Of a DNA stretch of 64,000 nucleotides, positions 5,106-34,589 are shown piece after piece. How positions within the stretch are numbered: position 1 is the stretch's first letter; every line of letters begins with the position of its first letter. This stretch comes from Microbacterium sediminis. Lineage in GTDB: Bacteria > Actinomycetota > Actinomycetes > Actinomycetales > Microbacteriaceae. The position numbers and the translations under genes were made by a program. A model generated the notes under the pieces. It did not search any database. It was not told the DNA's origin and saw nothing but the letters and a program-made list of their open reading frames with translations. The stretch spans positions 434,001 through 498,000 of the forward strand of contig NZ_CP038256.1 in the NCBI RefSeq assembly GCF_004564075.1, in the 5' to 3' direction.

Positions 5106-5106
5106 C

Positions 5107-5718
5107 TCAGCCGTCCTCGGCCAAGGCGTCGGAGACCAGCGTCGACAGGATCGACGCTGATTGCAGTTGCCCGATGATCCGCGCCGCGACCCGGCCCTGC
5201 CGGTCCATCACCAGCGTGGTAGGCGTCGCCTGGATCGGCGTCGCGGCGGCGAAGGCGAGCTTCACCTGGCCACTGTCCGCGTCGATCACACTCGGGTAGG
5301 TGATGCCGTTGTCTGCGGCGAAGGCGCGGGCCGTGGCGGGCTGGTCATAGATGTTGATGCCGAGGAACCCGACGTCCTCGGCCTGAAAGTCCTGCCAGAC
5401 GTCCTCGAGCATCGGCGCCTCCGCGATGCAGGGGCCGCAGGCGGCGTACCAGAAGTTCACGACGTACACGCGGCCCGCGAAATCGTCGTCTGACACAGCT
5501 TCGCCGTGCTCCGTGACGCCGTCGAACACGACGGGCTCGCCCCGTTCTTCGGAGGCGATCGACTCGACGCGGAAGTCACCGGATTCGTAGGTCTGATTGC
5601 CGACGTCGTACTCAGCTGCGACGCCGTCCTGCGGCGCGCAGCCGACGAGCGCTGTCAGCAGGCCGACGGCGAGCACCGCCGCGAGAGAACGAGAAGGGGA
5701 CGAAGAAGGGGATCGCAA
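5107..5718 (-). CDS. TlpA/ResA-like thioredoxin-fold lipoprotein
   Basis: Thioredoxin-fold reductase expected to receive electrons from CcdA. The chosen TTG start has a GGAG about 9 nt upstream and gives a compact lipoprotein signal ending in LVGC, 203 residues in all. A longer in-frame start at 5853 would put a non-hydrophobic 45-residue leader before the signal and looks wrong. The active site is WYAACGPC and the cis-proline is in IQATPTTLV. It is the first gene of the ccdA-resB-dsbA-lnt-DUF3515 operon. Confidence 0.82.
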   Translation of the reverse strand: MRSPSSSPSRSLAAVLAVGLLTALVGCAPQDGVAAEYDVGNQTYESGDFRVESIASEERGEPVVFDGVTEHGEAVSDDDFAGRVYVVNFWYAACGPCIAEAPMLEDVWQDFQAEDVGFLGINIYDQPATARAFAADNGITYPSVIDADSGQVKLAFAAATPIQATPTTLVMDRQGRVAARIIGQLQSASILSTLVSDALAEDG

Positions 5719-5875
5719 CGGGGAGGTCTCCAGGGGTGGGCGAGGCGGATGGATCACGCCCGGGTGTGCCACCGCGCGCCCCTGCCGCGGCAGCAGGCTG
5801 CGCGCGACGAGAAACGACCAGTCTCCGGGCGTGCGAACGACGCGCGCGGACAAGCGGCGTCGCGCACCGATCCGT

Positions 5876-6298
5876 TCAGGTCCGAGAAATTCCCAGCAGC
5901 GCCGGTGTCACCGCAGGTGAGAACGTTCGCACCCGCGGGAGCAGAGCAGACAGCGACGGGCCCGCCGCCGACATGATCGCGGTCGGCCGGAGGCCGCCCA
6001 GCGCGCGCCATCCGATGAGCGCCAAGAGCACACCGCACAGCGCGCCGAGCAAGCACATCCCGCCGGTTCCCAACTCGTCGTCCGTCGACGTGAGAGCGAC
6101 GCTCACCTCGGCGTGAGAGGCCGGGGTATCCGCGGCCGCGGCCGTGACGGACAGCACCGATGTGCTCTCGAGGCTCTCGTGCGCAGATGAGGTCCAGATT
6201 CCCAGGAACATCAGAGCCGCAGTTCCCAGCGCCAGCAGCAGCTGAGCAACAGCCCGCCGATCGCCCCCCGTGAGGGTTCGGTGGGCGATCGGGTTCAT
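5876..6298 (-). CDS. Small membrane protein, DUF6153-like
   Basis: A 140-residue protein from the ATG at 6298 with an N-terminal TM segment, a Ser/Thr/Ala-rich extracytoplasmic part, a second TM segment MCLLGALCGVLLALIGW containing two Cys, and a basic tail ending in LLGISRT. Function is unknown. It resembles the protein encoded at 13748-14188 (CLLGAFCGLLLVLSF core and a similar tail), so the island carries two paralogues, each near a metal module. The DUF6153 label is from memory of copper-associated actinobacterial proteins. Confidence 0.6.
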   Translation of the reverse strand: MNPIAHRTLTGGDRRAVAQLLLALGTAALMFLGIWTSSAHESLESTSVLSVTAAAADTPASHAEVSVALTSTDDELGTGGMCLLGALCGVLLALIGWRALGGLRPTAIMSAAGPSLSALLPRVRTFSPAVTPALLGISRT

Positions 6299-6394
6299 GC
6301 ATTCCAGGGTAGTCGCGGCTGCTGAGAGGTGCGTGCCACTCTTATTTGCGCGCACGGGGGTGAACGTGCTCGTCCTGCCGGGCCGCGCCGCTCA

Positions 6395-6470
6395 CAGTGG
6401 AGTGGGCGGCCCGGACGCAGTTGACGATGACGATGACCTCAGCGACCTCTGCACCAGGACGACGCCATGT
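6395..6470 (-). pseudogene. Remnant of a metal P-type ATPase C-terminus
   Basis: The minus strand here matches the C-terminal coding region of the ATPase at 7619-9535. The intact gene encodes VVLVHEIAEVIVILNGLRAA; the remnant can be read as VVLVH, then after a 1-nt deletion EVAEVIVIVNCVRAA. No other part of the ATPase is present. It lies just downstream of lspA, so an earlier ATPase copy was probably lost when the present ATPase-cadD-lspA cassette was inserted or duplicated. Confidence 0.7.
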
Positions 6471-6483
6471 CATTCTCTACTTC

Positions 6484-7008
6484 TCAGTTCCCGTCGCTGC
6501 GGATCATGAGGACGGCCCCCGCGATCGCGGCGGTGACGATGACGACGTCGGCGAGGTTCCCGATGAACCAGTCGCCGTAAGCGAGGAAGTCCACGACATG
6601 GCCGCGGGCGAATCCCGGTTGGCGGAAGAGGCGGTCGCCTGCGTGTGAGGCGGCGGCCCCACCGAGCGCGCCAGTCACGATCGCCCACCCGGGCTGGCGG
6701 ACACGGAACGCGAAGACGATCGCGGTGACCGTGGCGGCGACGGCGAGCAGCGCGAACACCCAGGTGGCGCCCTCACCGACGGAGAATGCCGCACCGGGGT
6801 TGTAGGCCAGCTGCAGTCCCAGCACGTCGCCTACCAGCGGGATGCGCTCTTCCTCGGTGAGGGTGGCTTCAGCCCATGCCTTTGTTCCCTGATCGGCCAG
6901 GAGGACGATCGCGGCGAGCAGCAGCGATCCCGCCGTGAGCCGCCAGCGTTCCTGCCGAGGTTCTTCTCCGGGCCCGAGCTCGACGTCGCCTGTCGGTTCC
7001 GGCATCAT
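6484..7008 (-). CDS. lspA: Lipoprotein signal peptidase II (metal-island copy 1)
   Basis: A 174-residue aspartyl protease of the membrane that cleaves prolipoprotein signals before the lipidated Cys. Four TM segments and the LspA motifs are present: ADQGTKA, NPGAAFS, the catalytic Asp in GDRLF and the second in NLADVVI. The usual GGALGNLIDR block is altered to GGAAASHAGDR. The start at 7008 overlaps the cadD stop (ATGA). LspA genes linked to Cd/Pb efflux are an established pattern (for example PbrC in lead resistance), which fits this ATPase-cadD-lspA order. Confidence 0.9.
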   Translation of the reverse strand: MMPEPTGDVELGPGEEPRQERWRLTAGSLLLAAIVLLADQGTKAWAEATLTEEERIPLVGDVLGLQLAYNPGAAFSVGEGATWVFALLAVAATVTAIVFAFRVRQPGWAIVTGALGGAAASHAGDRLFRQPGFARGHVVDFLAYGDWFIGNLADVVIVTAAIAGAVLMIRSDGN

Positions 7009-7619
7009 GCGAGGACCTCGACGAGGCGGAGGATGACGCCGGATTCGATCAGGATGAACAGGCCGAGGCCGATGAACACGGCCGGCACGAGCCAGTGCTC
7101 GACGCGTTCCAGCGTCTCGGTGACGGTCTTGTGGGTTCCGATCAGCCGTCCCGCCGTGCACCAGACGGCCACGAGGGCGAGGAACACGACGATCATGATC
7201 GCGACCTCGCCTGGCTCGCTGGTGCGGAAGATCGGGGTGTAGAGGGAGATGTTGTCGGCCCCGTTGGCGATCGTGATCCCAGCCACGCCCCACATCCCGA
7301 CTGCGGTGATCTTGTTGTCGTCATCGTCATCGTCATCGTCGTCGTTGCGGCGTAGGCCGCGCACGAGCGTCCAGATGCCGATGCCGAGCGGGATCGGGCC
7401 GAGAAACCCGACCCATTCGTCCGGGACTATCGTGAGGCCGAGTGCGGCGACCACGCTGATGACGACGAGGGTGATGAATCCGAGGTACTGACCCGCGACG
7501 ATCTGCCACGGTCGCGGCTTCCCCCGGCCGGAGGCCAGGAACAGCACGGTGAGCACGACAATGTCGTCGATGTTGGTCGCAGCGAACAGGCCGATCGCTG
7601 AGCCGATGGTCGCGAGCAT
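7005..7619 (-). CDS. cadD: CadD-family cadmium resistance transporter
   Basis: A 204-residue membrane protein of the CadD family with five or six TM helices, characteristic FAATNIDDIVVLTVLF near the N-terminus and NGADNISLYTPIF in the middle. It is expected to lower cellular Cd2+, by efflux or sequestration. A run of nine aspartates, flanked by Asn, sits in the predicted cytoplasmic loop. The start overlaps the P-type ATPase stop (ATGA) and the end overlaps lspA, placing all three under the CmtR-like repressor. Confidence 0.88.
   Translation of the reverse strand: MLATIGSAIGLFAATNIDDIVVLTVLFLASGRGKPRPWQIVAGQYLGFITLVVISVVAALGLTIVPDEWVGFLGPIPLGIGIWTLVRGLRRNDDDDDDDDDNKITAVGMWGVAGITIANGADNISLYTPIFRTSEPGEVAIMIVVFLALVAVWCTAGRLIGTHKTVTETLERVEHWLVPAVFIGLGLFILIESGVILRLVEVLA
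7317..7343. repeat. GAY-codon microsatellite (nine Asp codons in cadD)
   Basis: Nine consecutive Asp codons (alternating GAC and GAT on the minus strand) lie inside cadD between two Asn codons. Such a trinucleotide tract could change length by slippage without breaking the frame, altering the acidic cytoplasmic loop. Confidence 0.85.
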
Positions 7620-9535
7620 CAGCTCTCCAACCGTGGGGCGCGGGTGCGGGCGGCGCGCAAGCCGTTGAGGATCACGATGACCTCCGCGATCTCGTGCACC
7701 AAGACGACAGCGGCGAGCCCCAGGATCCCGAACAGCGCCAGCGGGAGCAGCGCGGTGATGATCAGCAGCGACAGGATGATGTTCTGGTTGATGATCCGTC
7801 GACCCCGCCGTGCGTGGTCGAACGCCCGCGGGATGAGGCGCAGGTCGTGGCCGGTGAAGGCGACATCGGCGGACTCGATCGCCGCGTCGGAGCCGGTCGC
7901 TCCCATCGCGATGCCGATGTCCGCCGCCGCGAGAGCCGGGGCGTCGTTGATGCCATCACCGATCATCGCGACCGGTCCTGCCTTCGACAGCTCACCGATC
8001 GCCGCGGACTTGTCCTCCGGGCGCAACTCCGCGCGCACGTCGCCGATCGCGGCCTGCGCGGCCAGTGCCCGGGCGGTGCGGACGTTGTCGCCGGTGAGCA
8101 TCGTCAGCCCGACGCCCTGACCGGCGAGGGTCCGCACGACCTCGGGGACCTCTGGGCGCAGCTCGTCGCGGACACCGATCGCAGCGACCGGAGCCCCGTC
8201 ACGGTGCACGATCACCACGGTCATGCCCTGCTCCTCCAGGCCTGCGACCCGGTCGCCGAGCGCGCCGGCGTCGAGCCAGCGCGGGCTGCCGACCGTGATG
8301 CGAGCGCCGCCGACGGTGCCTTCGATGCCATGCCCTGCCTGCTCGGACACGCCGGCGGCCGCCGGGACGCCGGGGGCTGCTCCGGTGATCGCCGCGGCGA
8401 GGGGGTGAGTGCTGTGCTGCTCGAGTGCCGCCGCCCACGCCAGCGCCTGGACTTCGGTCACGCCGTCCGTGGTGAGGACGGCGGTGACCGCCGGCTCGTT
8501 CCGCGTCAGGGTGCCGGTCTTGTCGACGGCGACGTGCCGGATGGTGCCGAAACGCTCGAACACCGCACCGGACTTGATGATCACGCCGAACTTGCTGGCC
8601 GCCCCGATCGCGGCGACGACGGTCAGCGGCACCGAGATCGCCAGCGCGCAGGGTGAGGCGGCGACCAGCACGACGAGCGCGCGCGTGATCCACACCTCCG
8701 GGTCGCCCAGCAGCGACCCGATGATTGCCACCAGCGCAGCGAGAATCAGCACACCGGGCACCAGCGGTCGCGCGATCCGGTCCGCGAGGCGCGCTCGCTC
8801 GCCCTTCTCCGCCTGCGCCTGCTCCACCAATTCGACGATGGTGGTGAGCGAGTTGTCGGTGCCCGCCGCTGTCGTCTCGACCTCCAGCGCCCCCGCGCTG
8901 TTGATCGCGCCGGCCGACACTGCATCCCCGGGCTCCACCTCGACCGGGATCGACTCTCCGGTGATCGCGGACGTGTCCAGGCTGGAGCGACCGACGCGGA
9001 CGATCCCGTCAGTCGCGATCCGCTCGCCCGGACGGACGAGCATGACCTGCCCGACCACGAGGTCCTTTGCGGCGACTTCGAACGAGGCACCGTTGCGCTG
9101 CACGGTCGCGGTCTCCGGCACGAGCTTCAGCAGCGCCCGCAGCCCGCCACGGGCGCGGTCCATCGCCTTATCCTCCAGCGCCTCAGCGATCGAATACAGG
9201 AACGCCAACGCCGCGGCCTCTTCGACATAGCCGAGGATGACCGCACCGACCGCACTGATCGTCATCAGCAGCCCGATGCCGAGCTTGCCCTTGAACAGCT
9301 TCCGGATCGCACCCGGCGTGAACGTCGACGCGCCCAGCAACAAACCAACCCAGAACAGCACGAGCGCCGGAATCTCCGCCCCTGACCACTCGAGGACCAG
9401 CCCGGTGAGGAACGCGACACCTGAGAAGACCGGCACCATGACGCCGCGATCCTTCCACCAGGGCTGCTCCGCCTCCTCGAGATCCTCGTCCACCGCTGCG
9501 GGGGACTCGTGGTCGCAGCCGCACGCCGCGCTCAC
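7619..9535 (-). CDS. P1B-type heavy-metal translocating ATPase
   Basis: A 638-residue metal-exporting P-type ATPase. After a short N-terminus with CGCDHE (possible metal ligands) and two TM helices come the TGES motif (TGESIPVEV), the metal-binding SPC motif in VAASPCALAIS, the phosphorylation motif DKTGTLT, and TGDN and GDGINDAPAL of the nucleotide domain. The C-terminal HEIAEVIVILNGL helix is typical of Cd/Zn/Co pumps. The SPC rather than CPC motif argues against Cu+. The GTG start overlaps the cmtR-like stop (GTGA) and the end overlaps cadD, as in the mycobacterial cmtR-cmtA arrangement. Confidence 0.92.
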   Translation of the reverse strand: MSAACGCDHESPAAVDEDLEEAEQPWWKDRGVMVPVFSGVAFLTGLVLEWSGAEIPALVLFWVGLLLGASTFTPGAIRKLFKGKLGIGLLMTISAVGAVILGYVEEAAALAFLYSIAEALEDKAMDRARGGLRALLKLVPETATVQRNGASFEVAAKDLVVGQVMLVRPGERIATDGIVRVGRSSLDTSAITGESIPVEVEPGDAVSAGAINSAGALEVETTAAGTDNSLTTIVELVEQAQAEKGERARLADRIARPLVPGVLILAALVAIIGSLLGDPEVWITRALVVLVAASPCALAISVPLTVVAAIGAASKFGVIIKSGAVFERFGTIRHVAVDKTGTLTRNEPAVTAVLTTDGVTEVQALAWAAALEQHSTHPLAAAITGAAPGVPAAAGVSEQAGHGIEGTVGGARITVGSPRWLDAGALGDRVAGLEEQGMTVVIVHRDGAPVAAIGVRDELRPEVPEVVRTLAGQGVGLTMLTGDNVRTARALAAQAAIGDVRAELRPEDKSAAIGELSKAGPVAMIGDGINDAPALAAADIGIAMGATGSDAAIESADVAFTGHDLRLIPRAFDHARRGRRIINQNIILSLLIITALLPLALFGILGLAAVVLVHEIAEVIVILNGLRAARTRAPRLES

Positions 9536-9891
9536 GCGTCCACTCCTGCGCCGCAGCAGCCGGGCACCGTGCACTCCGAGTCCACGCACGGCGCGTGCTC
9601 GTCGACAGCCAGCGTCACGTCCACCAGCGCAATCAGGGCAGCAGCGAGGTGCGGATCGGCGATCTCGTAGCGCGTCTGACGGCCCTCCGGCTCAGCGACG
9701 ACGATCCCGCAGTCGCGTAGGCATGTCAGGTGGTTCGACACGTTCGAGCGCGTCAATTCCAGCTCGCGGGAGAGCACCGCGGGGTAGCTCGGGCCCCCGA
9801 GCAGGGTCATCAGGATCCGAGAGCGCGTCGGATCCGCCATGGCACGGCCGAGCCGGTTCATCACGTCAAGACGGGAAGCAATAGACAGCAT
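9532..9891 (-). CDS. cmtR: CmtR-like ArsR-family Cd/Pb-sensing repressor
   Basis: A 119-residue winged-helix repressor very close in layout to Mycobacterium tuberculosis CmtR: LGRAMADPTRSRIL at the N-terminus, recognition helix LTRSNVSNHLTCLRDCG, and a C-terminal AVDEHAPCV. In CmtR the metal ligands are the two Cys of the recognition helix (CLRxC) and a C-terminal Cys, and all three are conserved here; extra Cys at the end (CTVPGCCG) could add ligands. The start is set by homology and by a TATAGT -10 element ending 7 nt before the ATG, which suggests a leaderless mRNA. It should repress itself, the ATPase, cadD and lspA. Confidence 0.88.
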   Translation of the reverse strand: MLSIASRLDVMNRLGRAMADPTRSRILMTLLGGPSYPAVLSRELELTRSNVSNHLTCLRDCGIVVAEPEGRQTRYEIADPHLAAALIALVDVTLAVDEHAPCVDSECTVPGCCGAGVDA

Positions 9892-16658: not shown

Positions 16659-17047
16659 GAGGTCGCCTCCCTGTTCTGCAGCTTGATCCTGAGGCGCTCC
16701 AGCGCGATCGCCGATGCGACGCGACGGGCCCGGTGATAGGCGAGCACGCGGTCGCGGTCGATGAGTCGGTGGAGAAGGTCGTGGCAGTACGGATGCAACG
16801 GCACGAGGTCGTCGTGACGCTCGAACGCCCGCCACGCGCCGCTCGCGAAGCGAACGCCCGCGTAGTCGAGGTGGTGCAGCTCGAGCTGTTCGGGGGTCGC
16901 GGGGTGTCCGCATCCCGCGCAAAGTAGCGACCGACGCATCCGCTCCTGCCTGCGGAACCAGCGCGCGCGTCGCGCGAACCACGCGGGCGAGCGGAGGAAG
17001 TCCGCCCGGTACGAGTTGCGGGCGCCGGTCTTCCGGCGATTGCTCAC
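16655..17047 (-). CDS. HNH-like zinc-binding protein
   Basis: A 130-residue basic protein from a GTG start that overlaps the traG stop. It contains LLCAGCGHPATPEQLELHH and later PLHPYCHDLLHRLID, i.e. CxxC, a His pair and CxxxxH spaced as in HNH/zinc-ribbon folds. It may be a nuclease or a DNA-binding accessory of transfer. The third conserved Asn/His of true HNH nucleases is not clearly visible, so catalytic activity is uncertain. Confidence 0.6.
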   Translation of the reverse strand: MSNRRKTGARNSYRADFLRSPAWFARRARWFRRQERMRRSLLCAGCGHPATPEQLELHHLDYAGVRFASGAWRAFERHDDLVPLHPYCHDLLHRLIDRDRVLAYHRARRVASAIALERLRIKLQNREATS

Positions 17048-18894
17048 GGCTCGCTCACCGCCTCCGGATCCGCCTCCGGATCCGCCTCCGGTTCCGGGGC
17101 CGGTACAGGTTCCGGGCTGGGGATTGGGCTCCTCGCCTCGGCGAAGACTCCCTGTTGCTCGGCCTCGGTGGACCGCTTCCCCGCCTGGATGTCGCGCGCA
17201 TCGCGCCGCTCGTCCCACCCGCTGAGGTCGAGCAGCACGCCGCGCCGGTTGCGGTAGGCCAGCAGACCGACGTTCTGCGGCATCCGTCGGATCTCGTCGA
17301 CTGACATGAGTGCGAGTCGTTCGTGGTGTTCGCTCGTGGAGTGCCCTGCTTCTCGCGTCGACCACGATCGCTGAGTCCGTCGCGTCTGCCGAGTTCCGAG
17401 CAGGGCCTCGACATCGCGTAGGTGGTTCACGTGCGAGGCGCCGCCGAGCAACACCTTCGCCGTCGCGGCCGCCCAGATTGTGTCGGCCTCGGCACGCGAC
17501 CATGACGTCTCTGCCTGCGAGAGCGCCTGCAGCACGACGAACGTGCAGATCCCGCGGCCACCGCCGTCCGCCATGATCCGCGGGAGGTTGCCCCACCGGA
17601 ACATGTTCACGATCTCGTCCAGGATCAGCCCGAGCGGATGCTGCAACCGAGACCCCGGCGATGCCAGGGCGCGAATGCGCGCGACCTCGACGATGTCGTC
17701 GAGCATCGCGCCGAGGAAACCGCCCATCGCCGATGCTCCCGAGGCCGACCCGATCAGGTAGAGCGTGTTCGCGCCGTCGAGGAACGCGCGCGGATCGAAG
17801 ACCGGCTCTCCAGGCCGTGGCATGAGTGCATCGCGGATCTTCGGGACGGCGAGCGGTGCGACGGCGCCCTGTACGCCGAACCAGATCGACGAGACGAGCT
17901 TGTCGTCCGAAGCGAGGGTCGCTTCGAGGTTGTCGCCCCAGCCAGGGGCGCCGTCCGAACGGAGGATCGAGACAGCTGACCTGCGCGCGAGGATCGGACT
18001 TGTGCCCCAGTTGTAGAGGTCTTCGATCGAGCAGTTGCCGACGGCCGCCGCATGCAGAAGACGCCCGAGGACGACCCCGGATGCCTGTGCCCACTCGCCA
18101 TTGGTGTTCGAGGCGCCGAGCGCGGTGCCGGTGATGACCGCGGCGCCGCGCTGCATGGCGACCAGGGGGTCCTCGCACCCTGCGATCGGAGAGACGCGAA
18201 GCGGATGCCGCGCGCCGGAGAGTCCCTGCGGGTCGAACACGTGCACCTGCCCGCGGCGCTCGCGCATCCGGAGCGTCGCGGTGAGGTTGTCGTTCGTGGT
18301 CGACGTCGTGATGAGCGGCCCCGACCAGTCGAGGATCGCCGAGATCAGTACGCGGTATCCCTTTCCCGAGCGCGGCGGGCCCTCGAGCGCGACAGAGTCC
18401 TCGATGGACACGAAGACGTCCATCCCGCGGGAGCTTCCGACCCGCCAGCCCACATCGGTGGCGCGGGGCCGGCTGATGTCGGGCCGGAGTTGCCTCGCTC
18501 GCTTCAGTACCGCCTTCGCTGAGAGGTGCTTGCGGATCTCCGATGCCTCGGCGAACCCGGGACGGCTCCGGAGGTCGGTGATGAACGATTGGTCCGACTG
18601 GCGATAGCGGCGGTACGTGACCCACGCCCACGTGGCCAAACCCACGACGAGGAAGACAACCACGAGGTCGACGAGTCGGATCGCGAGAACAGGAAGCTCG
18701 CATCCGGCGATCGGTAGATACCCATCGGGATCGCCGGTGATCCCGAGCCAGAGCCCGGAGAACAACGATGCTGGCTCTGGCGGCACCCCACATGCGACGC
18801 GGACGATAGCTTCGGTGAGCGCGGCGAAGGCGATGCTGAGGACGACGACGACAGCAATCGCCACCGCGACGGCCTTGCCGAGTATTCCGTTCAT
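17044..18894 (-). CDS. TraG/TraD-type type IV coupling ATPase
   Basis: A 616-residue VirD4/TraG-like protein that would link the relaxosome to the transfer channel. Two TM helices lie near residues 7-30 and 70-92, Walker A is GPPRSGKG near residue 170, Walker B is LGLILDEIVNMF, followed by an RGICTFVVLQALSQAE segment as in coupling proteins. The C-terminus is a Pro/Glu/Ala repeat (PEPVPAPEPEADPEADPEA). ATG 18894 is preceded by GGGGA. It overlaps the HNH-like gene by 4 bp. Confidence 0.88.
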   Translation of the reverse strand: MNGILGKAVAVAIAVVVVLSIAFAALTEAIVRVACGVPPEPASLFSGLWLGITGDPDGYLPIAGCELPVLAIRLVDLVVVFLVVGLATWAWVTYRRYRQSDQSFITDLRSRPGFAEASEIRKHLSAKAVLKRARQLRPDISRPRATDVGWRVGSSRGMDVFVSIEDSVALEGPPRSGKGYRVLISAILDWSGPLITTSTTNDNLTATLRMRERRGQVHVFDPQGLSGARHPLRVSPIAGCEDPLVAMQRGAAVITGTALGASNTNGEWAQASGVVLGRLLHAAAVGNCSIEDLYNWGTSPILARRSAVSILRSDGAPGWGDNLEATLASDDKLVSSIWFGVQGAVAPLAVPKIRDALMPRPGEPVFDPRAFLDGANTLYLIGSASGASAMGGFLGAMLDDIVEVARIRALASPGSRLQHPLGLILDEIVNMFRWGNLPRIMADGGGRGICTFVVLQALSQAETSWSRAEADTIWAAATAKVLLGGASHVNHLRDVEALLGTRQTRRTQRSWSTREAGHSTSEHHERLALMSVDEIRRMPQNVGLLAYRNRRGVLLDLSGWDERRDARDIQAGKRSTEAEQQGVFAEARSPIPSPEPVPAPEPEADPEADPEAVSEP

Positions 18895-18905
18895 CCCGTG
18901 TCCCC

Positions 18906-19382
18906 TCAGAACCCGCTCGCGACGGCGGCCGCGACGCGCAGCCAAGCATCTTGCGTCGCCCGCCGGAGGCTGTCGAACCGCAGGGGGCCGGACTTCAGGG
19001 CCGGGTCGAACGGGATCCGCAGAACCTCGCGCACGGTGCCACGAAACCCGTCCGCGACGCGCTCTGCGGCGGCAGGCCCCCTCGGCTCTGACTCGGTCAC
19101 CACCACGATCGCGCTGTCCGCGAGATCCCGGGACCGCTCGTCGCGCTCGCGAAGTGCGTCGAGCAGCAGCGCAGCGGACTCCGCCGGCTCGGGGGCGGCG
19201 AGCGTCGGAATCACGAGCTGATACGACGAGTCGACCATCCGCAGCCATCGCTCGGCCGACTCGTCGTTACCGGAGTCGAAGAACACGAGTCGGTAATAGC
19301 GGGCCGCAACCGACATAAGGGTGTCGAACTCCGTCCGTTCGATTCGCTGGTGCGTGGCGAGCAACTCGGGATTCGATCGGAG
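18906..19382 (-). pseudogene. ParA/MinD-like ATPase, C-terminal part (split by IS3)
   Basis: This is the 3' part of a gene whose 5' part is at 20691-21491. It resumes at RSNPELLATHQRIERTEFD and continues through FFDSGNDESAERWLRMVDSSYQ to the stop. The matching region of the chromosomal paralogue at 37051-38535 reads DVLRSQPMVLASQQR, which confirms where the halves join. Without the IS the protein would be about 426 residues. Confidence 0.85.
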
Positions 19383-26356: not shown

Positions 26357-26968
26357 TCACTTGAGCTGAAGGCCGAGTGCGGCCATGAACGGTTGCGGAT
26401 CGATGGCGGCTCCGTCTCGCTGCACCTCGAAATGCAGGTGGCAGCCGAACGAGCGTCCGGTGTTGCCTTCCGACCCGATCGGGGCGCCGGCCGCGACGGT
26501 CGCGCCAACTGACGCGCGGAGGGAACCCCACTGCATGTGGCCGTAGAGCGTCACGAGCCCGCCGCCGTGGTCGATGCGGACGGCGTTCCCGTACCCCTGA
26601 TACGAACCGGCGGTGATCACTTCGCCGGGGCCGGCCGCGTACACCGTCGCGCCGCAGCTCTGGGCCATGTCGTAACCCTGGTGGTCGATCGAGCAGTAGC
26701 TGCATCCGATCACCGGGTTGAAACCGAAGCCTCGTCCTTTGAAGTAGCCGCCGGCGAGCGGGTATGCCCACTCGCTGTTGGTGATGAGTGCCGGCCGACG
26801 CTCGACAGTCGTGGCAACCGACTGTCCCGCGACCGCGAACGGAACGGCGATGAGCGGTGTGGCCAGCAGTGCTGCGAAAAGCGCGAGAAGGAGAATCGCC
26901 CCTGTCACGATCTTGCGCCCGGTCCTCGTGTTCGCGAGGGCTGCAGCGGCAGCGACCGGGGCGCCCAT
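26357..26968 (-). CDS. M23-family peptidoglycan endopeptidase
   Basis: A 203-residue membrane-anchored LytM/M23 metallopeptidase. One TM helix lies at about residues 19-48. Zinc ligands are visible in SIDHQGYDMA (HxxxD) and GCHLHFEV (HxH), with GGLVTLYGHM between them. It probably opens the cell wall for the transfer channel. A short Cys-containing insert (VIGCSYCSID, later QSCGA) precedes the first His. Confidence 0.9.
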   Translation of the reverse strand: MGAPVAAAAALANTRTGRKIVTGAILLLALFAALLATPLIAVPFAVAGQSVATTVERRPALITNSEWAYPLAGGYFKGRGFGFNPVIGCSYCSIDHQGYDMAQSCGATVYAAGPGEVITAGSYQGYGNAVRIDHGGGLVTLYGHMQWGSLRASVGATVAAGAPIGSEGNTGRSFGCHLHFEVQRDGAAIDPQPFMAALGLQLK

Positions 26969-27844: not shown

Positions 27845-28162
27845 GTGCCCCGTTACACCCGCCCCGCGAACAGTGATTACGCGGAGGATCCGATCAAGGC
27901 TCTCGGGAACATGATGCAGGCGACCATCATTGGTCATCTGCGGAAGAACCCTGGCCAGACCAGGGGCGAGATCGCCGACGCGCTCGAGATTCCAGCACTG
28001 ACCGTTTACAACGGGCTCGAGAGGCTGCTCGACGCGGGCTTGATCATCGCGGATCCGCCGCGTGACGTCGCGACGCGCGGACAGCGCGTGCGGTACATCG
28101 TGGATGACGCCCAGGTCACCGAGATGGTGATGCGACTGGAGCAGGTGCTGGGCGAGTTCTAG
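27845..28162 (+). CDS. Winged-helix transcriptional regulator
   Basis: A 105-residue protein from a GTG start. MMQATIIGHLRKNPGQTRGEIADALEIPALTVYNGLERLLDAGLIIADPP is a complete winged helix-turn-helix of ArsR/MarR type, and no ligand-binding Cys or His cluster is seen. Divergent from the transfer operon, it is a good candidate for its repressor. Confidence 0.75.
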   Translation: MPRYTRPANSDYAEDPIKALGNMMQATIIGHLRKNPGQTRGEIADALEIPALTVYNGLERLLDAGLIIADPPRDVATRGQRVRYIVDDAQVTEMVMRLEQVLGEF

Positions 28163-28253
28163 CCGGTTCGCGTGATCTTGGCCGCGTTGGTCTGGCATGC
28201 GGTCGTCTGGCATGTCGACCCCTCTCGGCGATGTCGTCCATCCACCGCTCGCG

Positions 28254-28377
28254 TTGAGCATGCTCAAACGTGGGCGCGACTCAGCCTTGCACTCGAGCCG
28301 GGTCCGCGCAACGGTTGAGTTGAGCATGCCCAACACGTAGCGTGAGCATTCACGTGGGGGACGTTGGGCGTGCTCAA
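28254..28377. promoter_or_regulatory. Three phased palindromic operators upstream of xre-immA operon
   Basis: TTGAGCATGCTCAA (28254-28267) is a perfect 14-bp palindrome. TTGAGCATGCCCAA (28320-28333) and TTGGGCGTGCTCAA (28364-28377) are copies with changes in one arm. Start-to-start distances are 66 and 44 bp, i.e. about six and four helical turns. A further dyad CGTGAGCATTCACG sits at 28341-28354. The sites end 47 bp before the XRE gene ATG and are likely bound by its product. Confidence 0.7.
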
Positions 28378-28424
28378 CGGTTGTGACCGAGCCTTACCCG
28401 AAGGCGGAGGATGGTCAGGGGAAC

Positions 28425-28847
28425 ATGACAGAGGATGAAAGCAAAGCAGCGGCGGAGGACCTGGCGAGGCGGTTGCGACTGCTGCTCGACGTCGCCATTG
28501 CCGAGACGGGATCGGAGCCGACCTACTCCCAGATCGCCGCGTTCGCGCGCGATCGGGGCGTCAACCTGTCCCGGTCTCGGTGGACGTACATGGTCAATGG
28601 GCACCGGTACGTGCAAGACCGCCCGCTCTTCGAAGTGCTTGCTGAGTTCTTCGACGTCGACGCTTCGTTCATTGCCGAGGGGGGCGACGCGCCGATGCCG
28701 GCAAAGGTCAGGGCGCAGCTTGACCTCGTCCGATCGATGCGGGCAGCGAAGGTGAAGTCGTATGCGGCGCGAACTCTCGGCGACATCTCCCCGGAGGCGC
28801 TTGAGGCGATCAGCCGATTCCTCGACAAGGAAGTGGCGAACAGATAG
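28425..28847 (+). CDS. XRE-type DNA-binding regulator
   Basis: A 140-residue protein with a helix-turn-helix: TYSQIAAFARDRGVNLSRSRWTYMVNG, followed by LFEVLAEFFDVDASFI, typical of XRE regulators with a dimerising C-terminal half. The ATG has AGGGGA 3-8 nt upstream; an in-frame GTG at 28383 lies inside the third palindrome's flank and is less likely. It precedes an ImmA/IrrE metallopeptidase gene, the classic pair in which the peptidase cleaves or releases the XRE repressor under stress. Confidence 0.8.
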   Translation: MTEDESKAAAEDLARRLRLLLDVAIAETGSEPTYSQIAAFARDRGVNLSRSRWTYMVNGHRYVQDRPLFEVLAEFFDVDASFIAEGGDAPMPAKVRAQLDLVRSMRAAKVKSYAARTLGDISPEALEAISRFLDKEVANR

Positions 28848-28908
28848 CGGCTGGCCCGCCGCATGCGTGCGCCGCGACGGGTCGGATGGTACGGAGGGAA
28901 ATGGAACC

Positions 28909-29373
28909 GTGAACATCGAAGCGACCGTGTCGACGGCCATGGCGGAACTCGGGCTCGGCGAGGTCTTCTCCTTCGACGATCTCGTCGGCGCGTTGCAGCG
29001 ACGCAGACAGCGCCCGATTCGGATCGTCGAGCTCACGAACCTGAGCGACCAGGACGGCATCTGCGCGTTGTGGTTGATGACGGACACGGAGGATCTCGTC
29101 CTTCACGCGCGAAGTGAGTCGGCGTTGCATCGGCAGCAGTTCGTGCTCCACGAGCTCGCGCACATCATGCTCGAGCACGACCAACGCGACGAGGCGACCA
29201 CGCCCGATTTGCTGCTGCCCGACATTCCTGAATCCGCTCGCCAGCGTCTGCTCCGCCGCCAGGACCTCGTGACGGACGACGAGATCGTGGCGGAGGCGCT
29301 CGCGGATCATCTCGCTGGTGCGATCCGTGGTTCGGCTCTCCACCACTCTCGCTATCTGGAGATCTTCGGGTGA
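28909..29373 (+). CDS. ImmA/IrrE-family metallopeptidase
   Basis: A 154-residue protein from a GTG start preceded by GGAGGGAA. The zinc motif is HELAH in FVLHELAHIMLEHD, with a downstream DEIVAEALADHLAGAI helix that supplies the third ligand. The N-terminal half contains FSFDDLVGALQRRRQRPIRI. In ICEBs1 an ImmA peptidase destroys the XRE-type repressor ImmR, and IrrE/DdrO does the same in Deinococcus; the same relation is inferred here. The stop overlaps the next gene (GTGA). Confidence 0.87.
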   Translation: MNIEATVSTAMAELGLGEVFSFDDLVGALQRRRQRPIRIVELTNLSDQDGICALWLMTDTEDLVLHARSESALHRQQFVLHELAHIMLEHDQRDEATTPDLLLPDIPESARQRLLRRQDLVTDDEIVAEALADHLAGAIRGSALHHSRYLEIFG

Positions 29374-30368
29374 TCCCGATCGCGGCCTCCGCCCTGATGT
29401 GGCTGCTCGTTGCGAGCCTGCTCATCCTGCGGCGGGGCCGAGCGGATCGCAGCATCATGTACTCCGCGGTGACGATCGCGGTCGCAATGACGTTCAATGT
29501 CGACACCACCTACCGGTGGGCCGACGCGGTGCTCGGTGGCACGAACATCGTCACGCTGCTTGCCGACCTCACATTGATGGTGGGCGTCTTCTTCCTTGGG
29601 CGCGGAGTGGCGAAGGCGATGCAGTACCAGTCGCGAGTCGCCCAGATTGCACTCGGCCTTCCAGTGCTGGCGGGCGCAGTCGTCGGCGCCGTCACAGCCT
29701 TCGCGTTCATCGACCGGGGTGAGACAACGACGACGTTCATGCTGGACCTCGGGGCGCAGCCGGCCGCCGCGACGTACTCGATCATCCAGTTCACCTACGA
29801 CGGCGTCGTGCTGACCGCCATGGCGGCTGCCGCGTCTCGTCAGATCGGGCGAAGTCGCGGCGCGGAGCGCCTGCCAGCGGTCTCGGTGCTGGTGGGGAGC
29901 CTCACCGGCGTCACTCTCTCCCTTGTGGTCATCGCCATGGATCTCGCGCACATCATCGGGAACCTGACGCTCATGGACGGGCTCAGCGCCGCCTACGATC
30001 CGCTCTTCCTGGCGACGTTCCTGTTCCTCTGCCTCGGGCTCGGTGCTCAGCCCGCGTTGCGCTGGGCGCGTGCCCGATCCCGTGGCGAGAAGACTCGTGC
30101 GCTCCTCGCCCAGGTCACGCCGACCTGGGAGCGAGCGATCGACGTGCGACCAGGCTTGAGTCAGCTTGAGCCGTCGTTCCATCGTGAAGACGACGAGACG
30201 CGGCTGCATCGTCAGATCGTCGAAGTTCGGGATGCCGTCATCGATCCGCGCGTCACCTTCACGTTGAGCGATGCTGAGCGAGTGGCTGTGGAGAGCGCGG
30301 AGGCGCACCTGATGGCGGGGGACGCGGGGGGTTTGCCGCGCGCAGATATTCCGAAGGAGGTGCGTTGA
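29370..30368 (+). CDS. Multi-TM protein of MAB_1171c/DUF6545 type
   Basis: A 332-residue protein with a GTG start overlapping the immA stop. Seven hydrophobic segments fill residues 1-230, followed by a cytoplasmic domain with RLHRQIVEVRDAVIDPR and VESAEAHLMAGD. This resembles the MAB_1171c-type proteins with a C-terminal DUF6545 domain that occur after XRE/ImmA genes in actinobacteria. Function is unknown; a stress-sensing or membrane-effector role is a guess. Confidence 0.65.
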   Translation: MIPIAASALMWLLVASLLILRRGRADRSIMYSAVTIAVAMTFNVDTTYRWADAVLGGTNIVTLLADLTLMVGVFFLGRGVAKAMQYQSRVAQIALGLPVLAGAVVGAVTAFAFIDRGETTTTFMLDLGAQPAAATYSIIQFTYDGVVLTAMAAAASRQIGRSRGAERLPAVSVLVGSLTGVTLSLVVIAMDLAHIIGNLTLMDGLSAAYDPLFLATFLFLCLGLGAQPALRWARARSRGEKTRALLAQVTPTWERAIDVRPGLSQLEPSFHREDDETRLHRQIVEVRDAVIDPRVTFTLSDAERVAVESAEAHLMAGDAGGLPRADIPKEVR

Positions 30369-31525
30369 GGACGCTAGCGATCATCGCCGCGGCTCTTGGG
30401 GCCGCCTCGGCTGCCGCAGCCGGGGTGGGCTTCGTGATCGCGCGACGTCTGACGGCACTGCCCGGCGGGCGCGTGTATGACCTCATGGTGCACGACGTGA
30501 TTCGACACCGCGGGCAGGTTGCGGTGGTGCTCAACCGCACCCCGCGCACTCAGGCGCCCGGTCTCTACAACCTCTGGCTCGAGGACGGGGGCTGGGTGCG
30601 GCTTGGTGCCATCGTTGACGAACGGTCCACGACGGTGACTCGTGCTGTGGTTGGGATGACGTCGGACACCAAGCTGCGCCCGGGTGTGCGGGCGTCCTGG
30701 AGCGGCATCTTCTATCGCGATCCCGCCGACGCTGGGCTGGATGCTCTGGATGTCGTCGTGGAGACGCCCGCGGGTTCGGCCCCCGCGTGGCTCATTCACC
30801 CGTCCAACGGCCCGAGCGATCGCTGGGCGATCCACATTCACGGGCTGGGAAGCCCGCGCGCCGGCACGTTGCGCGGCGTCCTGGTCGCCGCCGATGTTGG
30901 GCTGACGTCACTGGTCGTCTCATACCGCAACGACGGTGAAGGGCCCCGCGTGGGCTCTGGCCGGTCGACACTCGGCGCGACGGAAACCGATGACGTCCGG
31001 GCCGCCGTTAGGTTCGCGCTCTCCCACGGCGCTCGTCGCGTCGTGCTGTTCGGATGGTCTATGGGTGCCGCAATCGCGCTCCAACTTGCCGTGGACGAAG
31101 AGTTCGGCGACGTCATCGAGAGACTGATTCTTGACTCACCTGTGCTCGACTGGGCGGCGACGGTCGCCGCGAACTGTCGCCGCGCCGGGCTGCCGTCCTG
31201 GTTCGGCGTGTTCGCACGCCCTTGGCTGCAGAACCGACTCCTCGCTCGGCTGGTCGGGATCGAGGTCGCTGTTCCGCCGCGGAGCATCAGCGGGGTGGCC
31301 CGAGCCGAGGAACTCGCTATTCCACTGGTCATCCTTCACGGGTTGGAGGACTCGTCGGTTCCGCACGCGGTTGCGCGTCGCCTCGCGACGCTCCGTCCAG
31401 ACCTCGTCCAGCTCGAGACGTTTGCGTCAGATCACACTATGACCTGGAACTCCGACCCCGACCGCTGGCAGGTCGTCGCGTCGAAGGCGGCCGAGATCCA
31501 CCAGCGGCGCAGCCGTCGATACTAG
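30365..31525 (+). CDS. Membrane-anchored alpha/beta hydrolase
   Basis: A 386-residue serine hydrolase from a TTG start overlapping the previous stop (TTGA) with AAGGAGGTGC just upstream. One N-terminal TM helix (residues 3-28) anchors it. The catalytic triad is readable as Ser in FGWSMGAA, Asp in HGLEDSSVP and His in FASDHTMTW. IHIHGLGSPRAG forms the oxyanion loop. The substrate is unknown. It is the last gene of the xre-immA-DUF6545 operon and its stop overlaps the convergent HEPN gene stop by 4 bp. Confidence 0.82.
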   Translation: MRTLAIIAAALGAASAAAAGVGFVIARRLTALPGGRVYDLMVHDVIRHRGQVAVVLNRTPRTQAPGLYNLWLEDGGWVRLGAIVDERSTTVTRAVVGMTSDTKLRPGVRASWSGIFYRDPADAGLDALDVVVETPAGSAPAWLIHPSNGPSDRWAIHIHGLGSPRAGTLRGVLVAADVGLTSLVVSYRNDGEGPRVGSGRSTLGATETDDVRAAVRFALSHGARRVVLFGWSMGAAIALQLAVDEEFGDVIERLILDSPVLDWAATVAANCRRAGLPSWFGVFARPWLQNRLLARLVGIEVAVPPRSISGVARAEELAIPLVILHGLEDSSVPHAVARRLATLRPDLVQLETFASDHTMTWNSDPDRWQVVASKAAEIHQRRSRRY

Positions 31526-32016
31526 GAGTTCACCGGTAGGAACAGGTCGAAGAGTAGGTTGACCGTTGCATTCGCGACTTTGCGATACTCCGCGAGGATC
31601 GGCGCCGTGGCGCGAGTCGCCCCACCATGGGCCAGCTTGTGGCGTGCACCGATGAGGTTGCCGAGTGATTGACGGTTTTCGTCGGTGTTGAGGAAGTCTG
31701 TGAGAGCCCTCTGCCAGTCTGGATCGAACCCGCCGACCAGCTGCTCTAGCTTCGCGGGATTCAGGTTCGTGATCCGTTCGGCCTGCCGCTTTGAGAAAGC
31801 CAGCACACGATGGCTCGAGTGCTCCTCGAGATAGCCCGCGATCATGCGCCCAACGCAGTACTCGACGTGTCCGCTCAGCTTGATCACCGCGAGCTGCATC
31901 AGGTACGCCTGGTCGATGAGATCGCTTTGGTCGTTAGCGCGCCTCACGACTTCGTCGATTTCCACGAGCCGCTTCAGAACCTCGGCGCGATGATCGACGT
32001 ATCGCCCACCGCTCAT
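31522..32016 (-). CDS. HEPN-domain protein (partner of DUF262)
   Basis: A 164-residue all-alpha protein with the HEPN signature RHKLAHGG (Rx4H) near residue 130, after YLEEHSSHRVLAFSKRQAERI. HEPN proteins of this size are often RNases in toxin-antitoxin or abortive-infection systems. Its ATG would overlap the original DUF262 gene stop (ATGA), as shown when the IS256 is removed from the sequence. The IS now separates it from the DUF262 gene and probably from its promoter. Confidence 0.72.
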   Translation of the reverse strand: MSGGRYVDHRAEVLKRLVEIDEVVRRANDQSDLIDQAYLMQLAVIKLSGHVEYCVGRMIAGYLEEHSSHRVLAFSKRQAERITNLNPAKLEQLVGGFDPDWQRALTDFLNTDENRQSLGNLIGARHKLAHGGATRATAPILAEYRKVANATVNLLFDLFLPVNS

Positions 32017-32115
32017 AGCCCGGCGAACTTCTCTCGCGCCAGCCGGAGCCGTGTCGCCTGGAGTCCCGCGGGGTGGTGGTCTTTCGGGCCCGCGGCGTCG
32101 TGACCGCGACGGGGT

Positions 32116-32185
32116 GAGCCATCGTGCGATGGTCAGTGAGAACGACCAAGAACTCACACAGAAAGACGACACCGCACGATGGCTC
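32116..32185 (+). promoter_or_regulatory. Hairpin sequestering the IS256 transposase start codon
   Basis: The 13 bases at 32116-32128 are the exact complement of 32173-32185, which contains the transposase ATG (32179). An mRNA entering from outside the IS would fold this stem and hide the start; an mRNA starting inside the loop would not. Confidence 0.6.
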
Positions 32186-33414
32186 TTGACCAGTCTGCCC
32201 TCCTCGAGCTGCTCGGGGAACTGAAGCTCACCGGCACCACCGACCGCATCCGAGCCGCGACCGAGCGGCTCTACCAGGAGCTGATCGACGCGGAGACAGC
32301 CGCATTCATCGGCGCCGCCCCCTACGAGCGCACGAGCGAGCGCACGACTACCCGCAACGGTTCCCGGCCGCGGGTGCTGTCGACCACGGCTGGGGATCTG
32401 GAGTTGCGGATCCCGAAGTTGCGGCAGGGGTCGTTCTTCCCGTCGCTGCTGGAGCGGCGCCGCCGGGTCGACCAAGCCTTGTTCGCGGTCGTGATGGAGG
32501 CCTACCTCCACGGCGTCTCAACCCGGAAGGTCGATGACCTCGTCAAAGCGCTCGGCGCTGACACTGGCATCTCGAAGTCCGAGGTGTCCCGCATCTGCCA
32601 AGGGCTCGACGCCGAGGTCGCATCGTTCCGCGACCGCTCGCTGTCTGACATCGCCTACCCCTACGTGTTCCTCGACGCGACCTACTGCAAGGTCCGCATC
32701 GACCACCGTGTCGTGTCCCAGGCGGTCGTCGTCGCGATCGGCGTCGCCGCTGACGGGCGGCGGGTCGTGCTGGGCTTCGATGTCGGAGACAGCGAGACCG
32801 AGGAGTTCTGGAAGCAGTTCCTGCGCTCGTTGAAGACACGAGGTCTGGGCGGGGTGAAGCTGGTGATCTCCGACGCCCACGCCGGACTGAAGAAGGCCGC
32901 AGCGACCGTGTTGCAGGGCGCCGCCTGGCAGCGCTGCCGCGTCCACTTCATGCGCAACGTCCTGACCGCCCTCCCGAAGGGCCGGCAGGAGATGGTCGCC
33001 AGCGTGATCCGCACGATCTTCGCCCAACCCGACGCCGAGCACATCGATGCCCAGTTCGACGAAGTCGTGCGCATGATCGAGCGCGTCCACCCCAAGACCG
33101 CCGTGATGCTCACCGACGCCCGTGACGACATCCTCGCGTTCAAAGCGTTCCCCGCCCGGCATTGGCGACAGATCTGGTCCACGAACCCGCTGGAACGCCT
33201 CAATCGGGAGATCAAGCGCCGCACCGACGTCGTTGGCGTGTTCCCGAACAACGCCGCCCTGCTCCGCCTGGCCGGCTCCGTCCTCGTCGAGCAACACGAC
33301 GAATGGGAAGCCGCCGACCGCCGCTACTTCTCCGAAGCCTCCATGACCGAGCTCACCGCGACCACCCCCACCATCGACGAGGCGGTGATACTCCCCGAGA
33401 TCACCGCCGCCTAA
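32179..33414 (+). CDS. IS256-family (mutator-type) transposase
   Basis: A 411-residue transposase. The catalytic Asp-Asp-Glu residues lie in YVFLDATYCKV, VKLVISDAHAGL and LERLNREIKRRT, and the QRCRVHFMRNVL motif typical of the mutator superfamily is present. The frame is intact and the length is normal, so the element may still move. Confidence 0.95.
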   Translation: MALDQSALLELLGELKLTGTTDRIRAATERLYQELIDAETAAFIGAAPYERTSERTTTRNGSRPRVLSTTAGDLELRIPKLRQGSFFPSLLERRRRVDQALFAVVMEAYLHGVSTRKVDDLVKALGADTGISKSEVSRICQGLDAEVASFRDRSLSDIAYPYVFLDATYCKVRIDHRVVSQAVVVAIGVAADGRRVVLGFDVGDSETEEFWKQFLRSLKTRGLGGVKLVISDAHAGLKKAAATVLQGAAWQRCRVHFMRNVLTALPKGRQEMVASVIRTIFAQPDAEHIDAQFDEVVRMIERVHPKTAVMLTDARDDILAFKAFPARHWRQIWSTNPLERLNREIKRRTDVVGVFPNNAALLRLAGSVLVEQHDEWEAADRRYFSEASMTELTATTPTIDEAVILPEITAA

Positions 33415-34589
33415 ACTAACGACAGCTGATCATCGCAACGAAGCGAAAGACCACCACTCAAACGGACGCGGCCCCGTGTCGAGACCGACTCTTCGTTCGC
33501 GGTCGCCTTGGTGACCGCTTGGAGGTACTCCTCGTCAGCGATCAACGACTCATACGCTTCGAGCCAGGAGCTCGTGTCGATAGCCTCCCAGTCCGATCCT
33601 CCGAGTCTCGCCATGACGCCAACGAACACCGAGTCGAGGATTGCCGCATTCACCTGAGTGCCAAGACGGAAGGCGCGCCGTCCGAGCGCCTTATTGAGGA
33701 CCTGGGCGCTTGACCTGAACCGTTGCTTCAACGCAACGAGATCGATCCCCTCTCCCTTGCGATGGTTGCCGAGGAAGTCGTTGAGGAAGCTCTTCAGCGG
33801 CGCCGAGTACTCGTCCGAGGATTCGCTGAGAGCGAGTACGCGGAGGATTAGCTCCTGGTCTTTGAGTCTCGCGTTCTTAGCACCATACAGCGCGCGCCAA
33901 TCGCTGCCGTTGTTTAGCTCGCGGATGGCGTCCACGGTAGTCCCGCCGTACAGCGCCACACGAATCTCGTGAGGCTGCAGGTTTGTACCGCCCGAGTTCA
34001 GCCGCTCGAAGATCTGATAAACGCTCTCGTACTCGTCGACGGAAGCGGGCGAGCGGATGATCACGGCCTGGATGAATGTGTCGTCGAGCGCGCGCCGCTG
34101 CTCGTCTGTGAGCCCGGAGTATGTCAGACCCTTGAACTTGTCCTCCACGTTCGCAAGCTTGAACCTGTCACCAAAGAAGGCTGCGAGCGTCGTCAGTCGC
34201 TGCTGGCCGTCCAGCACAAGGTACTTTTTCCCGGGCTGCTCTACGAGGAAGATGCCTGGTACCGGGAACCCCAGCAGCAATGACTCGATGAACCGGTCCA
34301 TCTGGTTCCGGCTCCAGACGCGTCGTCGCTGGAAGCCTTGCGCTTTGGGATCAGGCAGCTCCACCTGCGGATCGAAGGCCGGAACGATGATCGCTTCGGC
34401 GTTGAACCTGCGCACCAGCCCATGCACGTCGAACTCCGTGCCGAAATAAGTTAGCGGTGCAGTGTTCCGAGCAGCAGCCTCGGACTCGTCGACGTCCAGG
34501 ACGTCATCGACGTTGACGAGATCGTCTGAGCTGACGTCGTTGGGTTGAGGGGCCGAGTCGTCCAGGTTGCCGTGCGCGTCCGTGGTCAC
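33411..34589 (-). CDS. DUF262-domain protein with IS256-altered C-terminus
   Basis: A 392-residue protein from a GTG start. The DUF262 nucleotide-binding/nuclease region contains RNQMDRFIESLLLGFPVPGIFL and the hallmark YLVLDGQQRLTTL, then FERLNSGGTNLQPHEIR. DUF262 (GmrSD N-terminal, ParB-like fold) proteins pair with HEPN proteins in predicted anti-phage systems. The last 12 native residues are replaced by about 20 encoded by the IS256 end. The loss is small, so activity may persist, but co-translation with HEPN is lost. Codon use is less G+C-rich than the chromosome to the right. Confidence 0.82.
   Translation of the reverse strand: MTTDAHGNLDDSAPQPNDVSSDDLVNVDDVLDVDESEAAARNTAPLTYFGTEFDVHGLVRRFNAEAIIVPAFDPQVELPDPKAQGFQRRRVWSRNQMDRFIESLLLGFPVPGIFLVEQPGKKYLVLDGQQRLTTLAAFFGDRFKLANVEDKFKGLTYSGLTDEQRRALDDTFIQAVIIRSPASVDEYESVYQIFERLNSGGTNLQPHEIRVALYGGTTVDAIRELNNGSDWRALYGAKNARLKDQELILRVLALSESSDEYSAPLKSFLNDFLGNHRKGEGIDLVALKQRFRSSAQVLNKALGRRAFRLGTQVNAAILDSVFVGVMARLGGSDWEAIDTSSWLEAYESLIADEEYLQAVTKATANEESVSTRGRVRLSGGLSLRCDDQLSLV

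Follow-up and report, generated by a model that had tools for sequence, protein, structure and literature searches.

A four-gene cassette joining an XRE regulator and an ImmA-like protease to a predicted seven-transmembrane receptor and a hydrolase: a candidate switch of actinobacterial conjugative elements

A 64,000-nt stretch of Microbacterium sediminis DNA (contig NZ_CP038256.1, positions 434,001 to 498,000; hereafter the window, whose own numbering is used below) contains a compact cassette of four genes, encoding an XRE-type DNA-binding protein, an ImmA/IrrE-like metallopeptidase, a seven-transmembrane (7-TM) protein and an α/β hydrolase, preceded by an array of palindromic sites. Here, we describe the cassette and its relatives and propose that the family may act as a switch of conjugative elements. 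The upstream region was compared across 20 close loci (21 examined, minus L064, which is without the XRE gene), 19 of which enter the promoter and operator alignment (L057 is left out). The array and the four genes are laid out as follows:

28254..28267, no strand: operator O1, a perfect palindrome, TTGAGCATGCTCAA, with counterpart sites in close relatives
28298..28311, no strand: decayed operator O2, right half GCGCAA retained, position read off the alignment
28315..28343, plus strand: putative cassette promoter TTGAGT-17-TAGCGT, weak (relatives mostly have TTGATT-17-TANNNT)
28320..28333, no strand: operator O3, TTGAGCATGCCCAA, inside the -35/-10 spacer
28342..28355, no strand: decayed operator O4, GTGAGCATTCACGT, overlapping the -10-like hexamer, position read off the alignment
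28364..28377, no strand: operator O5, TTGGGCGTGCTCAA, a position filled in the window and L002 only, among the 20 close loci
28425..28847, plus strand: XRE, EspR-like DNA-binding protein, 140 amino acids (aa), assigned by a profile of 11 relatives against EspR structures and by start conservation
28909..29373, plus strand: ImmA/IrrE-like zinc metallopeptidase with a HELAH motif, 154 aa
29370..30368, plus strand: DUF6545/MAB_1171c-like 7-TM protein, predicted receptor, 332 aa
30365..31525, plus strand: α/β hydrolase with an N-terminal membrane helix, 386 aa, triad S232/D329/H357

The initial annotation of this DNA had described four genes in this order behind a multi-site operator, with 4-bp overlaps linking the second to the third and the third to the fourth, and this layout is confirmed. 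The overlaps lie at 29370-29373 (ImmA/7-TM) and 30365-30368 (7-TM/hydrolase), and a gap of 61 bp separates XRE from ImmA. Position 28254, with which that annotation began, is to be corrected to the first palindrome rather than a gene start; the most likely XRE start is the ATG at 28425, which is conserved in the 19-locus alignment, with a GTG at 28383 also open. All four frames are open in the window copy and the catalytic residues are retained.

The operator consists of three copies (at 28254, 28320 and 28364) of a 14-bp palindrome with the pattern TTGRGCRTGCYCAA, together with the two decayed positions, which are phased with them; O5 is in register with the rest of the array. At up to one mismatch, the palindromes give 6 strand matches in the window against 0.03 expected, a count reached in 0 of 100 shuffles, and no further match of this quality occurs elsewhere in the window. 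Scanned with the exact pattern, the 2.92-Mb genome contains the palindrome nowhere beyond the cassette (control pattern: 1). Most loci of the close group carry sites at about -190, -144, -122 and -100 from the XRE profile start, spaced by 45, 22 and 22 bp, with 2 to 4 sites per locus. Among the genomes of 15 relatives, 13 show a site cluster at the cassette, one a single stray and one none under the pattern; stray sites are few across these genomes.

On the side away from the cassette, the array is flanked by a divergent ArdC or Prim-Pol gene in 18 of the 20 close loci. Farther out follow, in this order and where present, genes for DUF2637, a protein of unknown type, ParB, a second unknown protein and a member of the M23 cluster. 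Promoter-like hexamers face both ways. Toward XRE, TTGNNN-17-TANNNT is found in 18 of the 19 aligned loci (TTGATT in 13, TATATT in 4), with one site occupying the -35/-10 spacer and the next extending onward from the -10. Toward the divergent gene, 13 of the 19 have TTGCGC-17/18-TA (TAGAAC in 9) with the -35 inside a site, and in the window the right half of O2, read on the minus strand, is TTGCGC, the -35-like hexamer of a lost divergent promoter. A protein sitting on the array would cover the promoters of both directions.

A profile built from 11 relatives of the XRE protein finds EspR among PDB sequences at E 9.8e-7 (positions 12-122), a match spanning the helix-turn-helix (HTH) and the domain that follows. 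EspR is the sole PDB molecule matched below E 0.01; the single XRE sequence reaches E 0.12 against it and meets no Pfam cut-off (query from 28428, one residue short). The ImmA-like protein scores 16.3 of 22 bits with PF06114 (Peptidase M78), below the gathering score, and the family matches three of its nine relatives at E 0.01 (best 8.6e-6). Its HExxH residues H81, E82 and H85, and E129 as the likely third ligand, are invariant in the nine ImmA-like sequences. The hydrolase meets the cut-off of PF12146 (S33-like; 35.3 of 27 bits) and resembles the Pf2001 esterase (Foldseek E 1.3e-12); S232, D329 and H357 are invariant in 46 sequences, and its model has a helix at residues 2-30. The 7-TM protein reaches 64 of 100 bits with NF042915 (MAB_1171c family; aligned over 7-303 of 332), below the curated cut-off, and 18 of 24.4 bits with PF20182 (DUF6545), below the gathering score, a family matched by 52 of its 54 relatives at E 0.01. 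Its AlphaFold model is read as seven helices, with a mean predicted local distance difference test score (pLDDT) of 87, and its well conserved parts include a cytoplasmic motif. These observations agree with what the initial annotation had read from the letters: a HELAH metallopeptidase, a seven-TM protein and a membrane-anchored serine hydrolase.

The name of the NCBI family, 'MAB_1171c family putative transporter', suggests another function, in which the 7-TM protein would be a transporter and the hydrolase would act on its cargo. Passages of a study on Mycobacterium abscessus point the same way: the MAB_1171c mutant formed about half the biofilm mass, and transport was inferred (PMC8707978). 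We consider this improbable, as the 54 relatives match five Pfam families without a transporter among their names, and the 7-TM gene is tightly linked to ImmA and XRE. The structure matches listed for the protein are all G protein-coupled receptors (GPCRs), in a list where a family may be missing and where the absence of other folds is not informative.

That linkage extends across the family. A homologue of the 7-TM protein (E 1e-10) is found in 34 of 398 Microbacteriaceae genomes, our own included. The 42 places found, less our own copy and the second fragment of one locus, leave 40, of which 38 were fetched (the weak G031:C45 and G105:C5 are left out). ImmA lies upstream in 36 of these 38 loci, XRE is present in 35, the hydrolase lies downstream in 28 (counting L064, where it is 1.9 kb off behind an intervening gene, and the partial matches L037 and L040), and all four genes occur together in 25; the rare co-occurrence that the initial annotation named as a refutation of its interpretation is thus not seen. 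In four loci (L046-L049), the genes run ImmA-7TM-XRE, and three of these loci (L046, L048, L049) carry a CATG-centred palindrome before ImmA. In a sample of the phylum, MAB_1171c-family matches occur in 11 of 296 genomes, again with our own, and an ImmA-like gene stands beside the MAB_1171c-family gene in 14 of the 16 loci fetched with their surroundings (G558:C24 and G579:C2 are left out). Two relatives have broken cassette genes: L035 has an interrupted hydrolase and a short 7-TM gene, and in L067 the 7-TM gene lies in two frames.

The hydrolase has a wider distribution, with homologues at E 1e-30 in 315 of the 398 Microbacteriaceae genomes. Among the matches listed, nearly every one above 50% identity comes from a cassette genome, and the rest lie at 37-50%. 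M. sediminis itself has a second copy at 1744621-1745724 (L093 6571-7770, minus strand), 40% identical. The mobile hydrolase may thus be a copy that split off from a widespread chromosomal relative. In an alternative reading, to which this kinship would fit, XRE and ImmA regulate, and their output is the 7-TM protein and the hydrolase, envelope proteins produced on induction that would keep out a second copy of the element or ready the membrane for mating. The genes of these two predicted membrane proteins form an overlapping unit with ImmA, and the cassettes of the close group lie beside conjugation or replication genes. We think this unlikely, because ImmA accompanies the 7-TM gene even where the hydrolase is missing, and also in 14 of the 16 phylum loci, which fits a partner of the protease, and because the cytoplasmic motif of the 7-TM protein belongs to its well conserved parts.

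The cassette is also found on plasmids. Searching with the 7-TM protein (tblastn) returns 11 plasmid records from Arthrobacter, Paenarthrobacter and Citricoccus, nine of them typed as conjugative, with pAO1 among the carriers. The five plasmids examined each have all four genes in the order ImmA-7TM-hydrolase-XRE, with a palindrome before ImmA that has the same CATG centre and different arms (e.g. TGAAACATGTTTCA, CGGAACATGTTCCG). When up to 2 mismatches are allowed over the whole record, three pAO1-type plasmids each have the palindrome twice (control 1 in one plasmid), once before the cassette and once just after XRE; the other two have the cassette site, with one additional 2-mismatch place in the Citricoccus plasmid (control 1). 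A promoter scan upstream of ImmA in pAO1 finds none at threshold. Judged by eye, the second palindrome in L114 (8600-9118) and L116 (8530-9063) lies in promoter-like sequence, which would read antisense through a winged-HTH gene toward a CHAP gene.

Together, we interpret the cassette as a probable conjugation switch of the ImmR/ImmA kind, in which the repressor is EspR-like and a predicted 7-TM receptor and a hydrolase come in addition, and give this interpretation a probability of about 0.58. Its parts differ in strength: a repressor/protease switch of conjugative elements is probable; that the 7-TM protein is the sensor, as its topology, conservation and pairing with ImmA suggest, is an even bet; and a hydrolase acting on the signal is a guess that we hold rather doubtful. 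Some components can be read directly off the DNA, namely the co-occurrence of the genes and their overlaps, the array on conserved promoter-like hexamers and its placement in relatives, the HExxH motif and the Ser-Asp-His triad.

In such a switch, XRE bound to the palindrome array would repress the cassette itself and, in relatives, the neighbouring transfer or replication operon. The 7-TM protein would sense a ligand outside the cell and gate ImmA via its conserved cytoplasmic end at residues 225-318, upon which ImmA, by analogy with ICEBs1, would cleave XRE and lift repression. Removal of XRE would turn on the cassette operon, and in relatives the transfer and replication genes too, and the operon's own membrane proteins would set the activity of ImmA. 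The hydrolase might make, trim or destroy the ligand. Taken to its full extent, a GPCR-like receptor, ImmA and an EspR-like repressor could form a relay that decides on conjugation, with a signal made or erased by a hydrolase that is kin to a host enzyme, giving the element a mate- or crowd-sensing channel of its own; we regard this version as speculative.

XRE/ImmA control of integrative and conjugative elements (ICEs) is already known. In ICEBs1, ImmA cleaves ImmR in a protease-based switch cued by RapI or RecA, and, like the cassette, the ImmR-ImmA/RapI-PhrI system of Bacillus subtilis sets an XRE-type repressor with an M78-type protease on a conjugative element (passages of PMC6540685). 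Unlike in ICEBs1, where the partners are RapI and the PhrI peptide, those in the cassette are a 7-TM protein and a hydrolase, its elements are actinobacterial, and the PDB match of its repressor profile is EspR rather than ImmR. COG2856 proteases are listed among the most abundant families in putative XRE operons, for which a three-component system was suggested; in that study, these pairs are linked to RelE or PIN toxins, whereas here they accompany a 7-TM protein and a hydrolase on conjugative elements (PMC2701414, Makarova 2009).

Like EspR of Mycobacterium tuberculosis, which the XRE profile matches at about 1e-6 over 110 positions, the cassette repressor is a DNA-binding protein; unlike EspR, named in PDB as a nucleoid-associated protein, it has few palindromic sites per genome. 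EspR is said to bind widely across its genome. CapP-CapH reportedly follows the logic of an XRE repressor relieved by an M78 protease, and we know of no membrane receptor for it or for PprI/IrrE-DdrO. The latter shares this derepression logic (PMC10904395), with PprI answering DNA damage. The likeness to MAB_1171c/DUF6545 lies in the relatives of the 7-TM protein, most of which match DUF6545, while the window protein falls under both the NCBIfam and the Pfam cut-offs.

In searches of one open-access library, mostly at the level of titles and abstract openings, no description of an XRE/ImmA pair with a 7-TM protein and a hydrolase was found, nor was the term DUF6545; by word search, 'ImmA' is absent from the main text of a survey of actinobacterial ICEs (PMC3218068) and of two Arthrobacter plasmid papers. 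If our interpretation holds, horizontal gene transfer would have a new input in the form of a membrane receptor coupled to ImmA, and the DUF6545/MAB_1171c family, currently named a putative transporter, would gain a testable role. Transfer of pAO1 is reported at 10^-3 to 10^-2 per donor (in passages of PMC10494377); since this plasmid is transferable and bears the cassette, the model can be tested in a soil bacterium kept as a laboratory strain.

Several observations weigh against the proposed switch. Many distant cassettes (L034, L036-L045, L047, L068-L070), and likewise the phylum loci L095-L109, have no CATG-centred palindrome upstream of XRE or ImmA. On the pAO1-type plasmids, some 500 bp separate the second site from the CHAP gene on the side of the type IV secretion system (T4SS), with the antisense winged-HTH gene in between. 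The hydrolase is not within 2.5 kb in 10 of the 38 loci (L066 is cut by a contig end). The correlations (ParB/Prim-Pol 0.92, 7-TM or hydrolase to ArdC 0.83, XRE/hydrolase 0.64) may only reflect linkage. As for the receptor, the highlighted loops are no more conserved than transmembrane segments 2 and 3, and the GPCR resemblance is about at the chance level stated for helical bundles; Foldseek on its own gives a best E of 0.009. The remaining points concern the window itself. Its palindrome is absent at the other transfer genes of its element. The cassette there has lost the divergent (minus) -10 and has a weak plus promoter; a consensus scan of 28100-31700 finds no promoter, neither the putative plus one nor any for the last two genes. 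Single tblastn queries for ArdC, Prim-Pol, ParB and DUF2637 (E 1e-4) have no match in the window or within 20 kb to its left and right, and no ArdC/Prim-Pol homologue lies opposite the cassette in the window or in its closest relative, L002. Finally, the ratio of nonsynonymous to synonymous substitution rates (dN/dS) against L002 is 0.64 for ImmA and 0.68 for the hydrolase (first 250 codons), on few differences.

Around the cassette, the window contains the following genes:

17044..19248, minus strand: TraG/TraD-type T4SS coupling protein (PF12696, 90 bits), a context gene
26357..26968, minus strand: M23 peptidase, a context gene of the conjugation region whose cluster includes genes from the end of the relatives' divergent operon
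27845..28162, plus strand: small ArsR-like winged-HTH protein, between the T4SS genes and the cassette
31522-32088, minus strand: HEPN gene (RiboL-PSP-HEPN, PF18735), convergent with the hydrolase gene with a 4-bp overlap
33411-34577, minus strand: GmrSD-N/DUF262-type protein (PF03235, 95 bits), a possible restriction or defence gene

The copy in the window may control only itself, because the divergent operon and its promoter are missing, and it may be an orphaned or a rewired switch. As an orphan, it would be the leftover of an ICE switch that has lost its target operon and regulates itself or nothing, which is compatible with the proposed switch for the family. This is a serious possibility, if short of an even chance. 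It fits the missing ArdC, Prim-Pol, ParB and DUF2637 matches, the decay of O2, O4 and the divergent -10, the weak promoter, the lack of other exact sites in the genome, and the high dN/dS of ImmA and the hydrolase. Against it stand the four open frames with their catalytic residues, O5 in register, and low dN/dS values for XRE (0.05) and the 7-TM protein (0.22), again on few differences. The copy may also be rewired through the adjacent winged-HTH gene, whose protein has a 31% identical counterpart (E 3e-8, single comparison) on the Arthrobacter plasmid L116 (8647-9003), placed there between the cassette and the T4SS-side genes; this gene may be a second conserved regulator. Eight context proteins of the relatives, compared with the window's own element, give no match beyond a distant one to TrwC (27%) on its left side, and none in the 13 kb of L002; a TrwC-type relaxase lies 35 kb left of the window cassette. 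The initial annotation's suggestion of control over a conjugative element is supported in relatives, by the array beside ArdC or Prim-Pol and by the conjugative plasmids, and is weaker for the window, since the divergent operon is missing there.

Its other suggestion was a stress-triggered altruistic defence, in which damage or phage would activate ImmA, XRE would be removed, and the membrane protein and hydrolase would harm the cell. XRE-protease pairs such as CapH/CapP are said to regulate defence elsewhere, and the HEPN and GmrSD-type genes adjoin the cassette. We nevertheless find this very improbable. When six window proteins were scanned with PADLOC models, the 7-TM protein and hydrolase were unmatched and the regulator pair matched weakly (RmrA 15.5, capP 15.2, capH 13.5 bits). 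The 7-TM protein has no match in phage records, and the relatives' array faces transfer and replication genes. The hydrolase as a toxin is countered by its homologues across the Microbacteriaceae, which make gross toxicity unlikely.

Some minor features of the element complete the picture. A 15-bp repeat of the 3′ end of tRNA-Leu occurs at 60670-60684 and 5.1 kb left of the window, as a possible attachment site or by chance; the relaxase falls outside the span of this repeat. A putative transposase open reading frame adjoins the cassette at 32179-33414 (plus strand) and looks IS256-like, as judged by eye from its sequence. On the minus strand, 443-9589 contains ResB-like, apolipoprotein N-acyltransferase-like and E1-E2 ATPase genes, possibly metal-related cargo.

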